Shown here: positions 18,629 through 26,628 of the stretch, piece by piece | How positions within the stretch are numbered: the first letter of the stretch is position 1 | Layout of the letters: the number at the start of each line of letters is the position of its first letter | Assembly (NCBI GenBank): GCA_016213015.1 | Contig: JACRCE010000031.1 | Location: forward strand, 1 to 50,785 | Reading direction: 5' to 3' | Length of the DNA stretch: 50,785 bases | DNA from: Deltaproteobacteria bacterium | GTDB taxonomy: Bacteria; Desulfobacterota; GWC2-55-46 | Position numbers and translations under genes: made by a program | The notes under the pieces: model-generated | What the model was told of the DNA's origin: nothing | The model's database searches: none | Seen by the model: the letters and a program-made list of their open reading frames with translations, nothing else

Positions 18629-19504
18629 TTAAACTTTCTGTAGCGCCTCAAGCATGGTCTTGCCTATCTCGGCGGTGCTGTTGGTTACGCGGATGCCCGC
18701 GCTCCTCATGGCCTCCATCTTCTCCTCGGCCGTGCCCTTCCCGCCTGAGATGATGGCCCCGGCGTGCCCCATCCTCTTGCCCTTGGGCGCGGTGGCCCCT
18801 GCGATGTAGCCCACGACCGGCTTTGTAACGTTCTTCTTTATGAAGTCCGCGGCCTCCTCCTCGGCGCTGCCGCCTATCTCGCCGATCATCACTATGGCGG
18901 AGGTATCCGGGTCTTTCTGGTACAACTCCAGCACGTCAACGAAGTTGGTGCCGTTTACCGGGTCCCCGCCGATGCCCACGCAGGTGGACTGCCCAAGCCC
19001 AAGCCTTGTCAATTGATCAACGGCCTCATAGGTAAGCGTGCCGCTGCGCGATACGACGCCTATGTTGCCTTTCTTGTGTATGTGTCCCGGCATGATGCCG
19101 ATCTTACATTCGTCAGGGGTTATGACCCCCGGGCAGTTAGGCCCGACGAGACGCGACGGCTTTCCGGCGATGAACCTCTTGACCTTTACCATGTCCAGAA
19201 CCGGTATGCCCTCGGTTATGCAGATGACGAGCTTTATCCCGGCGTCAACGGCCTCCATGATGGCATCGCCTGCAAAGGCCGCAGGCACGTATATGACCGA
19301 TGCATCGGCCCCGGCAGCGCGTCTGGCCTCGTCAACCGTATCGAACACAGGTACAGAGTCCATCTGAGAGCCGCCCTTGCCCGGGGTTACGCCGCCGACC
19401 ATCTTGGTGCCGTAGGCGATCATCTGGCGCGTATGAAAGGCGCCCTGCTCTCCGGTTATGCCCTGACAGATTACCTTGGTGTTTTTGTCTACCAGTATGC
19501 TCAT
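18629..19504 (-). CDS. sucD: Succinyl-CoA synthetase, alpha subunit
   Basis: ADP/GDP-forming succinate-CoA ligase alpha subunit, 291 residues. It has the CoA-binding Rossmann fold at the N-terminus ([15 protein letters not shown]), [10 protein letters not shown], and the phosphorylated histidine in GHAGAIISG. Makes succinyl-CoA for KorABCD in the reductive direction. Its Shine-Dalgarno GGAGG lies inside the last codons of the PIN-like gene upstream, and the start is 4 nt after that stop. It is separated from sucC by about 2.2 kb of foreign genes, which is unusual. Confidence 0.96.
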
Positions 19505-19508
19505 CCGG

Positions 19509-20282
19509 TTAAACCTCCGTATATACTTTTCGATTTTCTATAACGTCGCAAATCGGCTCGAAATGCTTCCTGTTGGTGGTATATATTTGACCGCCTTCAG
19601 GCGCTTCTATCGCAATGACCGCATCGCTAAGAACGACATGACAATTATTTCCGTAAGGCATGTCTTTGCCATCTTTAATCACAGCGGCAACACGCGGGAT
19701 TTCACTCAGCTCTTTATCCTTACTTAATGAAGTCGCGGACGCCAAAGCATGCAACTCCTTTTTATGCTTCTTCCAAAAAATTTCTATAGCACACGAAGGA
19801 GGGTTATCTTTTGCACATGCAATTTTAAGCTCATATTTATTGCCCTGCCTCACCGGTTCGGCATCTACCCTGCAACAAGCGGTTTTGTTCACAACCTCCC
19901 CTTCGATATTTGCATGGAATTCCATCATCAAATCATCTTCAATCCATGACTCCAACCACTCTAAAACGGCCGCCTTATCATGTCCGACCTCATCGCAGAT
20001 TTTTACATAAACTTTCGTTATCCGCTTATGCAATCTATTTTGATATTTGTCAGCCCTCCTGAGCGCCGTATGCGTATCCGGCGAGTCAACAAGCAGATTG
20101 TAGTAAAGGATCACCGCATTCAAAAAGGTTTTCTTGAATTCGTTAAGAACAAAGATGGATGAGCAGACTCTCTTGCCTTTTAAGTTCCGCCGTATTCTTT
20201 CGGCGCAGACCCGTTCGCCAAAGATTGAGTCGGCTTGAATCGTAGTTTCCAGAAAAAGAACTTCTTCATCGTTATTACTCAT
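19509..20282 (-). CDS. PIN-like nuclease domain protein (third gene of sucC-sucD insert)
   Basis: A 257-residue protein of unknown role. The C-terminal end, [29 protein letters not shown], has the pattern of the PIN-domain closing motif (acidic residue, hydrophobic helix, TxNxxxF). The N-terminal [15 protein letters not shown] could supply the first acidic position. VapC-type PIN proteins cleave RNA, but this one is twice VapC length, so a toxin role is only inferred. It starts 8 nt inside the previous gene and ends 4 nt before sucD. Base composition is lower in GC than its neighbours. Confidence 0.55.
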
Positions 20283-20886
20283 CTTCTTTCACTGTATCCG
20301 GCTCAGGGATGATTCGGAATCCGACGGAACGCAGTTTCTTATATATTTCTCTATACCTTGCTCTATCTATAATTTCACCACTTATAGCCTTGGAAACATC
20401 TCTGATTACGCCGCGTTGCCGTTCGTCAATATCTTCCGCATTCACGTGCCTTATCGAAGCATAAAACGCCACTATGGAACGCAACAGATAAACATTCCCG
20501 CATTTCCGGGCTTCCTTGTTCAAATCAGCCAAAACAGCCTTGAGTCCCATGAAGCTACTGAGCCTATCCGCCAAATCTTCAAAATCAGATAAAAACGTAT
20601 CTACGCTTTCATGCAGTCGTTTGAACAGAATGTCCTTATTGTCGGCAACCGGTTCCGCGTGAGGGCGGGTAAGCGTAAGAGAGTTTTCTAACCTTATTAT
20701 TCTTTTCTCTGAAGCGTTAATACGCTCTCTCATCGAAAAAAGTTCCTGCCCGAATAGAACTTCATTCCCACGCCTCTCGTCCGGAAATTGCGCCTGCGCC
20801 TGCGAGGTTCTAAACAATTCATCTATAAAGGCCGCACTTGCCGCTTTTAGACTATGAGTAATTTGATGAGCTTTAGGTTTTTCCAT
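20275..20886 (-). CDS. Hypothetical helical protein (second gene of sucC-sucD insert)
   Basis: 203 residues, no family recognised. It is predicted mostly helical, with a heptad-like stretch around residues 45-70 (ELFSMRERINASEKRIIRLENSL is part of it) and a second around 85-125. There is no signal peptide or membrane segment. The start is 7 nt after the first gene and the end overlaps the third by 8 nt, so the three are translationally linked. Confidence 0.7.
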   Translation of the reverse strand: MEKPKAHQITHSLKAASAAFIDELFRTSQAQAQFPDERRGNEVLFGQELFSMRERINASEKRIIRLENSLTLTRPHAEPVADNKDILFKRLHESVDTFLSDFEDLADRLSSFMGLKAVLADLNKEARKCGNVYLLRSIVAFYASIRHVNAEDIDERQRGVIRDVSKAISGEIIDRARYREIYKKLRSVGFRIIPEPDTVKEDE

Positions 20887-20892
20887 AACATC

Positions 20893-21558
20893 TCACCCCT
20901 TCAGTTCCTTCTTCAGAGTATCTTTCAAGACGCTAAGGTCATCTATCAACTGTTCCAAGTCTTCAAGATGCACATCAATGGTCATGCTTTTTTGTTCTTT
21001 ATCTGAAAACACACCTACCATCCATGCGGACGGTGTTGTGCGGCTTTTATTGCAAATAAATTGCAAGGTGGCAAATGGCAGACGCTCAATCGGTCCCTTT
21101 TCAAGATCGTGAGACTTATAGCCAATATCCCATTCGAGCTTATCCAGAATATCGTTTTTACTAACTACTCTTAAAAGATACCTTTGCTTTAATGGTGGCG
21201 TGATAAGTTCTTGTTTTACAAATTCTATTTTCTCATCAAACGCTTTTCTGATCTCTTTTCTGATCTCCTCTGTCATGTCATGGAGAAAAATATAAAAGTC
21301 TATCATGTTGAACTTCCCATGTAGAGTGGCGGCAATAACCGCAGGGATTTCGATACCCAGTAATTCTTTTAACCTATCCTTTTCTATCCCCTGAAAATCC
21401 TTCTTTTCAAAGCTTTGTTCATCAAGACTGATACCCACAAACTGTCCAACGCTACTAATACGCACTTTGGCGATATTTTCTGCAATCAATTGCTTGGCAG
21501 CCAAGACAGCCTTCTTAAATTCTTCAACGGACGCATAAGTTTTTTCTTTTTTAGCCAT
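20893..21558 (-). CDS. Hypothetical protein (first gene of sucC-sucD insert)
   Basis: 221 residues, no family recognised. It contains SVGQFVGISLDEQSFEKKD, a central helical region (DMTEEIRKEIRKAFDEK) and an acidic C-terminus rich in D, E and L, compatible with a protein-binding role. I chose the ATG at 21558, with AAGGAG 6 nt upstream, over an in-frame TTG at 21573. It follows sucC by 132 nt. That gap carries an inverted repeat that could control this unit. Confidence 0.7.
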   Translation of the reverse strand: MAKKEKTYASVEEFKKAVLAAKQLIAENIAKVRISSVGQFVGISLDEQSFEKKDFQGIEKDRLKELLGIEIPAVIAATLHGKFNMIDFYIFLHDMTEEIRKEIRKAFDEKIEFVKQELITPPLKQRYLLRVVSKNDILDKLEWDIGYKSHDLEKGPIERLPFATLQFICNKSRTTPSAWMVGVFSDKEQKSMTIDVHLEDLEQLIDDLSVLKDTLKKELKG

Positions 21559-21615
21559 GTCCTTCTCCTTCAAGTAAGCCCCGGCAGACCTAAAACACGC
21601 CGTGGGGTTCGGTAA

Positions 21616-21651
21616 TCCGGCATAATCCGACCATGTTCAGATTATGCCGGA
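21616..21651. promoter_or_regulatory. Inverted repeat ahead of the three-gene insert
   Basis: TCCGGCATAATC (21616-21627) and its exact complement GATTATGCCGGA (21640-21651) are separated by 12 nt. A third, near-identical half-site, GATTACGCCGGA, follows at about 21661-21672. There is no T-tract, so a terminator is unlikely; an operator or RNA leader structure is possible. Confidence 0.45.
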
Positions 21652-21690
21652 CTTTTCCCGATTACGCCGGATATTGAAACCATACTCCAC

Positions 21691-22866
21691 TTATCCCTTT
21701 GCCGCCTTAACCGCCTTCTGGGCCGCCTCGTCCATATTCTCGGCGGTGATGATGTTGAGGCCGGAGCCGGCGAGCAGTTTTCTGCCCTGCTCCACGTTCG
21801 TGCCCTGAAGCCTCACGATGAGCGGAACCCTCAAGCCCACCTCTTTGGCCGCGGCCATGATGCCATCCGCTATGATGTCGCAACGCATTATGCCGCCGAA
21901 GATATTGACGAGCACGGCCTTGACGTTGGGATCGGACATAAGGAGCTTGAAGGCCGCGGTAACCTGATCCTTGTTTGCGCCGCCGCCAACGTCGAGGAAG
22001 TTGGCCGGAGAGCCGCCGGAGAGCTTTATCATATCCATCGTGGCCATTGCAAGCCCGGCGCCGTTGACCATGCACCCGATGGACCCGTCGAGCGTAACAT
22101 AGTTGAGTCCGTGCCGAGACGCCTCTATCTCCTTGGGGTCTTCCTCGTCCAAGTCCCTCATGCCTTCTATATCCTTGTGCCTGAAAAGGGCGTTGTCGTC
22201 AAAGGCCATCTTCGCGTCAAGGGCGATAAGCTCGTTGTTCTTGGTTACCACGAGCGGGTTTATCTCAAGCATGGCGCAGTCTGAATTTATAAAGGCGTTG
22301 TAAAGGCCGGTCATGAACTTCACGGCCTTGTTGACGAGCGTTTTGTCCATCTTATCGAGGCCGAGGCCAAAGGCGAGTTTTCTGCACTGGAATGGAATAA
22401 GCCCAACCGCCGGGTCAACGTACTCCTTCAATATCTTTTCAGGGGTTTTTGCCGCGACCTCCTCTATCTCGACCCCGCCCTCGCTTGAGGCCATTATCGC
22501 CGCGCGCTGTGTGCCCCTGTCAACCACTATGCCAAGGTACAACTCCCGCACAATCTGACAACCCTCCTCCACGTACACCTTCTTAACTTCCTTGCCTGCC
22601 GGGCCGGTCTGGTGCGTTACGAGCGCCTTGCCGAGGAGTTCGCCGGTAAAGGCCGAGACCTCCTCCCTGCTCCTTGCGAGTTTCACGCCTCCGGCCTTGC
22701 CCCTGCCGCCCGCGTGTATCTGCGCCTTGACGACGCACACGCCGGAAGAGAGGAACTCCTTTGCCGCCTCCTCAGCCTCGGCCGGCGTGAAGGCGATCCT
22801 GCCCTTCGGCACGGCTACGCCGTATCTTCCGAGGATCTGCTTTGCCTGATACTCATGGATGTTCAT
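21691..22866 (-). CDS. sucC: Succinyl-CoA synthetase, beta subunit
   Basis: ADP-forming succinate-CoA ligase beta subunit. The 391 residues open [17 protein letters not shown], the ATP-grasp domain includes [19 protein letters not shown], and the C-terminal domain has [12 protein letters not shown] and [16 protein letters not shown]. Partner of SucD. Its ATG overlaps the final TGA of the upstream HEPN remnant (ATGA). Confidence 0.97.
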
Positions 22867-23266
22867 TTATTGGAAGCCTCCGTGTGCTTTGTAATCATTG
22901 CTAAGAACGCTTTTGCGTCTTCGACATAACGAACGGCTTCTTCGGCTGAAACTTGAACGAACTCCTTATAATCAGCCATCTGCCTCGCTTCAAATAATTT
23001 ACGCATTACCCTGAATACGAACTGTCAATTGCGCCCGTATGAATGAAATATTTATTAAAGGCCGACATAACGCCTGAATGTTTCGATGTCTTGAGAAGAA
23101 TATCGTCCTTGATAAAAAGCGCAAGGATCGAGTAAAAGACCGCGTAATATGCCCTGTTTACTATTGACTTACCGCTTACTTCTTCCTTCAACATCTTCAC
23201 GGCGTCGAACAGCGTCTCATACGCCTGTCCAATACGATACTGGAATAATGCCTCCTTATCCGTCAT
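22863..23266 (-). pseudogene. HEPN-domain (UPF0332) protein, frameshifted
   Basis: The first 86 residues (to TAA at 23006) contain NRAYYAVFYSILALF and KHSGVMSAFNKYFIHTG, typical of UPF0332 HEPN proteins. The family's C-terminal part, MRKLFEARQMADYKEFVQVS and onward, continues in another frame to TGA at 22863. One added base in the GGG run (23009-23011) would restore a single frame through the junction. It is either a disabling mutation or a sequencing error. It overlaps its MNT partner by 4 nt and the sucC start by 3 nt. Confidence 0.8.
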
Positions 23267-23580
23267 ATCGTAATCCCGTCTGCAAAGATATTTTTTATTA
23301 TGGACGACGACCTTATAGGAGTATTTTCAATCTCCTCTTTCGTAAATACAAGCGAAGAAATAAACGTATAATTCTCAAAACCTACCTCCCAAACTATCTT
23401 GCTTATCTTTTCCTTTAAGCCTTTATCGAGCGAGACCACCTCTATAAACACGTCCATATCCGAATATTCGTCGCCATCGCCGCGTGCGCGCGAACCAAAG
23501 ACCTTGAAATCAACGAGACTAACGACGCTGCCGAGCCGTTGCTTCAAAGCGGACGCGGTCTTATAGTCTGTCTCGTTCAT
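23263..23580 (-). CDS. MNT-type nucleotidyltransferase antitoxin
   Basis: 105-residue minimal nucleotidyltransferase. The signature GSRARGDGDEYSDMDVFIE supplies the GS and paired Asp catalytic residues. In MNT/HEPN modules the nucleotidyltransferase can neutralise the HEPN ribonuclease by nucleotidyl transfer. Here the HEPN partner downstream is frameshifted. The pair sits between frdA and sucC in the same orientation. Confidence 0.85.
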   Translation of the reverse strand: MNETDYKTASALKQRLGSVVSLVDFKVFGSRARGDGDEYSDMDVFIEVVSLDKGLKEKISKIVWEVGFENYTFISSLVFTKEEIENTPIRSSSIIKNIFADGITI

Positions 23581-25498: not shown

Positions 25499-25876
25499 CT
25501 ATTTGATATCTTTCAATTTCTTCAAATAGTAAGATAGTATCAATATTTCCGACACTATTTCCGAAACTATCACAATAAATGCTATCCACATCGCTATATC
25601 GCTGCTAATTTTAGATTTGTGCAAATGAAAAATTAGAACTACAACTTGGACAACTACGAACATGACAAAAAAAACTGTATAAAAATCTGGCATCCAGCAA
25701 TACCAAGCCAGGTTACTCTTTTTTGCACTAAAATCGAAACTTTTCGGGAACACCAAGGCGTCTCCAATCAAGTTAAAATGTTTTCTGATATTATTGCTTG
25801 ATATGAAGTACCCTTTGTTTGCGTTCTGATTCTCTGCAAATTGCCGATGAAAATCCTTCAGGATATCCTTTTCGGT
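25499..25876 (-). pseudogene. Two-helix membrane protein, apparently 5'-truncated
   Basis: The frame is open from about 25876 to the stop at 25499 without an ATG or GTG near its beginning. The only common start is a TTG at 25771 (90 residues). The upstream part (EKDILKDFHRQFAENQN) looks coding, so the gene has probably lost its start where it joins the HEPN gene. The C-terminal half has two transmembrane segments (FFVMFVVVQVVVLIFHL and IAMWIAFIVIVSEIVSEIL). No family recognised. It is AT-rich compared with frdA and frdB. Confidence 0.5.
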
Positions 25877-25880
25877 CTCA

Positions 25881-26282
25881 TTAACCGCTCAATCCGCAAA
25901 GCGCGTCCTCGATATGCCGCACAAACTCTTTTGCCTTGACAAGTTGATCCTCTGCCTCAAACCGGCTGAATTCAACGTAATCCTCGTATTCCGCCCGTTC
26001 TCTTTTTGCCTTGGCACCGCTTATAATCCGATAGACATCCTTGGACAGCAGACCGGTCTTGATATAATGCTCATTGAACAGCGCGATTACTCCGGAATGC
26101 CTCTTGCTGTCCACTCCTTGTATCGCCAAAACGGCCCTCGCGGACGTAAAAACCGCATAATACGAACGGCCTATCGAATCAGCATAGTCGCCTGCCGCAA
26201 GCAGGGATTCGGACGAATGGAGCCTTTCCTTTGCTTTAGACAACCTGTATAGCGCAAGGATTTTCCGTGGGTCCTCACTCAA
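25881..26282 (-). CDS. HEPN-domain (UPF0332) protein
   Basis: 133-residue helical protein with IGRSYYAVFTSARAVLAI and KRHSGVIALFNEHYIKTGLL, the UPF0332 signature, then a helical tail (EDYVEFSRFEAEDQLVKAKEFV). Proteins of this class are candidate ribonuclease toxins paired with MNT proteins. The start overlaps the MNT gene by 8 nt. The module lies between frdB and frdA. Confidence 0.85.
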   Translation of the reverse strand: MSEDPRKILALYRLSKAKERLHSSESLLAAGDYADSIGRSYYAVFTSARAVLAIQGVDSKRHSGVIALFNEHYIKTGLLSKDVYRIISGAKAKRERAEYEDYVEFSRFEAEDQLVKAKEFVRHIEDALCGLSG

Positions 26283-26628
26283 GAGGTATTCCTTCCTTTT
26301 CTATCTCTTGTATAAAGAGCGTCCCGAAATACCTATTCTTCTCATGTTCGCGCCTGCTGTAGATGACCGGCGATATATTGCAGTCGTATTCGACATTGAT
26401 GTCCGCGGCTATATTGCTTACCTCATGCCGGACACGCCAGTCATCGGAATCCATCACTATCAATATGTCTATATCCGACTCCTCGTCAAAGTCGCCCCGC
26501 ACTTTAGAACCGAAGATACACGCTTGCACAAGGGTATCGCCAAGGAGCGCACAAACCTTCTCATGGAACAAGCTGACGCCTTTTCTTTCGGAAGGATTTA
26601 AGTACCGTTCGTAATTAAGCATAGGCAT
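26275..26628 (-). CDS. MNT-type nucleotidyltransferase antitoxin
   Basis: 117 residues. The nucleotidyltransferase motif is GSKVRGDFDEESDIDILIV, with a third acidic position in NVEYDCN. It is the partner of the HEPN gene it overlaps. It starts 21 nt after frdB; ATGs at 26628 and 26622 both follow GGAG. Two codons of uncertainty remain in the start. Confidence 0.85.
   Translation of the reverse strand: MPMLNYERYLNPSERKGVSLFHEKVCALLGDTLVQACIFGSKVRGDFDEESDIDILIVMDSDDWRVRHEVSNIAADINVEYDCNISPVIYSRREHEKNRYFGTLFIQEIEKEGIPLE

Follow-up and report, generated by a model that had tools for sequence, protein, structure and literature searches.

A three-gene insert between sucC and sucD that encodes a PIN-superfamily protein: a candidate mobile toxin–antitoxin-like module

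In the 50,785-nt stretch of DNA analyzed here (the window), three genes, designated A, B, and C, separate sucC from sucD. From comparison of their sequences with homologous sets in distant genomes, we proposed that the unit is probably a mobile, toxin–antitoxin (TA)-like module, possibly one for abortive phage defense, which consists of a B–C core and a swappable A and which landed in the gap between the two host genes.

The insert between sucC and sucD

The genes and sequence elements of the locus are arranged as follows:

21691-22866, minus strand: sucC, host gene 5' of the insert
21660-21671, minus strand: third copy of the half-site TCCGGC(A/G)TAATC, in the sucC–A leader
21616-21651, no strand assigned: inverted repeat with 18-nt arms, 89% complementary; possible operator or hairpin
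20893-21558, minus strand: gene A, 221 aa from ATG or 226 aa with an upstream TTG; no family found
20275-20886, minus strand: gene B, 203 aa; helical-looking; candidate antitoxin
19509-20282, minus strand: gene C, 257 aa; PIN-superfamily protein
19514-19518, minus strand: sucD Shine-Dalgarno sequence GGAGG, within the final codons of C
18629-19504, minus strand: sucD, host gene 3' of the insert

As the earlier note had described, the three genes overlap or nearly overlap and encode 221, 203, and 257 residues; all three reading frames are intact and tightly spaced, in that 6 nt separate A from B, the ends of B and C share 8 nt, and the stop codon of C lies 4 nt from the ATG of sucD. The other features reported for the unit were also confirmed, namely the inverted repeat at its start, just before A, the ribosome-binding site of sucD inside the last codons of C, and an AT-richer composition (42.4% GC compared with 53.5% for the whole window, which is below 99.8% of same-size windows).

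The statement that sucC and sucD normally adjoin also held among the relatives. A clear sucD orthologue was identified in 26 of the 29 relatives searched, and sucC was directly adjacent in every one of these 26 genomes, with less than ~0.4 kb between the two genes. The operon hdr-hdr-fad-sdhB-sdhA-sucC-sucD-ferredoxin-kor was complete and unbroken in all eight family members inspected. Apart from the window's own genome, no match was found for C alone in 59 relatives, for A alone in 395 genomes of the phylum, or for A, B, and C queried together across all 63 genomes of the class; moreover, no second copy of the window's own A was found in any public collection searched. Because sucC and sucD adjoin in relatives and the unit is absent from the relatives searched, we concluded that the A–B–C unit is an acquired insertion.

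Further TA-like genes were observed in the same operon. A HEPN-MNT pair is located between sdhB and sdhA (window 25881-26628) and is absent from this position in eight family members, and a second nucleotidyltransferase (MNT) gene lies with a truncated-looking HEPN frame between sdhA and sucC (window 23006-23580). Together with A–B–C, one operon has thus taken three TA-like inserts, all of which have a lower GC content than the measured operon genes. In addition, a 90-aa hydrophobic, membrane-like open reading frame without a known family is present between the HEPN gene and sdhA (window 25499-25771). The A–B–C unit resembles the two HEPN-MNT TA modules in its insertion into this operon; however, no HEPN or nucleotidyltransferase domain was found in A, B, or C.

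The leader between sucC and A contains three copies of TCCGGC(A/G)TAATC, two of which make up the inverted repeat and are predicted to fold as a 16-bp RNA stem. As the whole genome has just six such sites, three of them in this leader, we rejected the idea that the repeat is a dispersed genomic element; it was not seen upstream of the other loci, and an operator shared by them was likewise rejected. The repeat may be an operator or a hairpin of the sucC–A locus. An autoregulatory role is possible by analogy, since VapBC antitoxins are reported to bind operators in their own promoter regions (PMC3384007).

Protein C and the two genes preceding it

None of the window's A, B, and C proteins is covered by a Pfam, NCBIfam, PADLOC, or PHROG family, which agrees with the earlier observation that A and B match nothing known. 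Window C alone had no match in the family libraries searched, Pfam included, and no known defense or TA family was matched in PADLOC, NCBIfam, or Pfam; with the PADLOC 2.0.0 models, neither A, B, and C nor the set at the Verrucomicrobial locus L005 was matched. The PIN-type closing motif noticed earlier in the third gene, 28 residues long, is indeed present at the end of C, and the wider features of the PIN superfamily accompany it. The first relative of C, in a Verrucomicrobial metagenome-assembled genome (L005), was found by a scan of genome contigs and shows 55% identity over the closing motif. A two-row profile subsequently recovered four more relatives in the window's own phylum (E values from 2e-34 to 1e-10), and a tblastn search with one of these reached cyanobacterial plasmids (best-ranked E value 4e-11; eight plasmid records, two of them mere remnants). 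With leave-one-out profiles from which close relatives were omitted, each C member scored 48–120 bits, compared with 12.2 bits at most among 300 shuffles of each.

The four positions characteristic of PIN proteins are E12, E48, and D220, which are acidic, and N237, which is polar, in window C, and the order D/E, E, D, D/N is kept in all eight complete members (window C and seven others). Motifs 2 and 3 are separated by a long insertion with four cysteines (136, 156, 164, and 214 in window C), and these cysteines are kept in nine of nine sequences; both the PIN positions and the cysteines are conserved across three phyla. In two phylum-wide searches with C profiles, covering 388 and 395 genomes, four short proteins were the only non-family matches at E ≤ 1e-3; all of them are Pfam PIN proteins of the VapC type, and each aligned in the correct register with either the N-terminal or the C-terminal motif of C. 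The Verrucomicrobial member (P0006) alone reached Pfam PIN at 6e-4, just under the cut-off, and hhalign matched the first ~50 columns of the C alignment to a VapC alignment with an E value of 3.9e-5. An AlphaFold model of C from a two-row alignment was far below usable confidence (pLDDT 43.9, pTM 0.29). Since the four PIN positions are kept and the only profile matches outside the family are PIN proteins, these sequence comparisons place C in the PIN superfamily, with a long insertion that carries cysteines and separates the second acid from the third, and identify it as a coherent, previously unclassified family related to toxin-type PIN enzymes. C is predicted to be an RNase, and its conserved cysteines suggest that it binds zinc. 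At two positions where D is usual in VapC, window C has E and N, and it could be weak or inactive; the same variants also occur in the intact member at L045.

B precedes C and touches or overlaps it wherever both are intact, with junctions that range over all loci from a 23-nt overlap to a 6-nt gap. The B sequences are barely alike (leave-one-out scores of 1–13 bits), and their apparent homology across loci is judged from where the gene lies, from its length, and from a short motif at the C terminus, L..(V/L)GF..(I)P, with a similar end in most members. B is acidic in eight of nine cases (pI 4.1–5.3), the exception being the near-neutral window B (pI 7.0), and six of the nine C sequences have a pI above 8. 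B is probably the antitoxin of the pair.

The pair thus resembles VapBC type II TA modules in the PIN catalytic acids of C, in a small upstream gene that overlaps or abuts the PIN gene, and in its mobile or plasmid setting. However, C is 257–301 aa long, whereas the PIN toxin of VapBC is a short, single-domain protein of about 130 aa; ~170 residues lie between the second and third acids of C, compared with ~50 in VapC; C has four conserved cysteines; B gave no match to a VapB-type DNA-binding domain or to any family; and a third gene, A, is often present.

The A proteins outside the window form one family in the five loci that carry them (L005, L045, L046, L047, and L048; leave-one-out scores of 13–57 bits), and the A of L047 passes the curated cut-off of TIGR04255 (NCBIfam "sporadTIGR04255"; 38.7 vs 30 bits), which links the other four to TIGR04255 through their common family. 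Window A, in contrast, has no similarity to this five-locus family and no match to TIGR04255 at the 30-bit curated cut-off. A diverged TIGR04255 origin for it was rejected (hhalign probability 0.2%, with 105 of 1000 shuffles scoring as high), and a resemblance to COMM domains, suspected by eye, was dropped without Pfam or PDB support; a single-sequence AlphaFold model reached a pLDDT of 39, far below usable confidence. The A slot is accordingly TIGR04255-like in five loci, occupied by an unrelated protein in the window, and empty on cyanobacterial plasmids. We read the A position as exchangeable and B–C as the probable core; because the gene at this position elsewhere belongs to a different family from window A, the conserved core would be B plus C and not the exact triplet. 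A is probably a sensor or regulator, as we would guess from this pattern of exchange. No description of the function of TIGR04255 was found in the literature searched.

Homologous loci and their neighborhoods

The possibility that the three genes never co-occur elsewhere, raised in the earlier note, was contradicted by a survey of homologous triplets: profile searches recovered the A–B–C order in five other genomes, one Verrucomicrobial (L005) and four from the window's phylum (L045–L048), with gaps or overlaps of at most ~20 bases between the genes. A B–C pair without A is present on plasmids of Scytonema, Nostoc, Tolypothrix, and Trichormus, where several copies adjoin parA/parB or an integrase. 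The survey also placed the homologous sets in TA, defense, and mobile-element regions. At L047 the set comes after genes for a DpdE/DrmD-like helicase and a DrmMI-like methylase (4e-104 and 6e-78; DISARM/Dpd-like), and at L053 it comes after an MkoB-like (Mokosh-like) gene (3e-88). The L046 set is flanked by a Fic protein on its upstream side and by a DnaB-type helicase on its downstream side, VapBC lies immediately past the set at L045, and genes for an excisionase and a tyrosine integrase are present at L005. None of the C loci other than the window is linked to sucCD. Searches of phage and viral contigs with several members found nothing.

On the plasmids, dN/dS values of 0.10–0.30 for B and C indicated purifying selection on both genes. 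The C tree interleaves the window's phylum, Verrucomicrobia, and Cyanobacteria, with long branches and several modest supports, and this mixture of phyla is consistent with the spread of C by horizontal transfer. In L048, C is split over two frames (L048:6120-6891), through either a frameshift or an assembly error. Remnants of C were observed on two further cyanobacterial plasmids, NZ_AP017297.1 (71815-72021, 27% of the query) and AP025022.1 (26624-26737, 13%), which suggests turnover of the module there.

Interpretation and alternatives

The earlier proposal of a new three-gene TA or phage-defense module was therefore sustained in part: the PIN features of C, the distant recurrence of the set, and its TA, defense, and mobile neighbors support such a module, but the exact triplet did not hold, with B and C as the core and other A families elsewhere. 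Under the module we propose, the genes would be read from the host operon, and the ribosome-binding site within the last codons of C would maintain sucD translation. C would act as a metal-dependent endoribonuclease, with its cysteines binding zinc and shaping substrate choice; B, which would be translated together with C and is acidic in most loci whereas C is basic in most, would keep C inactive; and A would sense a trigger or tune release, such that swapping A would change the trigger. Upon infection or loss of the element, RNA would ultimately be cleaved and growth arrested.

A rival reading is phage defense proper rather than addiction, with A as infection sensor, C as abortive effector, and B as adaptor or inhibitor. 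In two loci the set comes straight after defense genes (L047, DISARM/Dpd-like; L053, Mokosh-like), and a swappable A resembles the expected trigger-recognition part; however, the cyanobacterial plasmid forms without A, several of them beside partition genes, fit plasmid maintenance better, few genomes carry the set, and PADLOC found no match. We regard this reading as conceivable rather than probable. Alternatively, C could be a PIN RNase that serves ordinary RNA processing or regulates the suc operon, and not a toxin. PIN proteins also have processing roles, C is by its position co-transcribed with sucCD, and the ribosome-binding site of sucD lies within it. Yet this explanation is difficult to reconcile with the absence of C from every relative searched, with the other loci and their missing sucCD link, and with a mobile, low-GC setting among TA and defense neighbors, and we consider it unlikely.

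It is also unlikely that the insert is a decaying passenger, a formerly working module that is now inert and kept since the operon stays unbroken. The first acid of window C is E and its fourth position is N, window A is unlike any partner, C is broken in two frames in L048, and the nearby HEPN gene of the same operon is truncated, all of which would fit decay. On the other hand, the three window frames are intact and tightly spaced, the intact C of L045 has E and N variants as well, and the plasmid homologues are under purifying selection. In literature on PIN domains combined with three-gene, anti-phage, and toxin–antitoxin terms, the matching work, according to its abstract, concerns RelE/ParE toxins.

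Returning to the TA-like module with a B–C core, we tentatively suggest that it may represent a new defense or TA class: a fixed B–C pair, comprising a probable inhibitor and a PIN RNase with a cysteine-containing, probably zinc-binding insertion, and a plug-in first gene that would set the trigger, TIGR04255-type in most loci, unrelated in the window, and missing on the cyanobacterial plasmids. C defines a PIN effector family missed by current annotation libraries, which is rare in the sampled genomes and spans at least three phyla, and the loci provide a first genomic context for TIGR04255-like proteins. Test cases are available in cultured Nostoc, Trichormus, Tolypothrix, and Scytonema strains that carry the minimal B–C pair. 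If the first gene is indeed a swappable sensor, the family would offer a simple system for studying how different triggers are coupled to a single nuclease.
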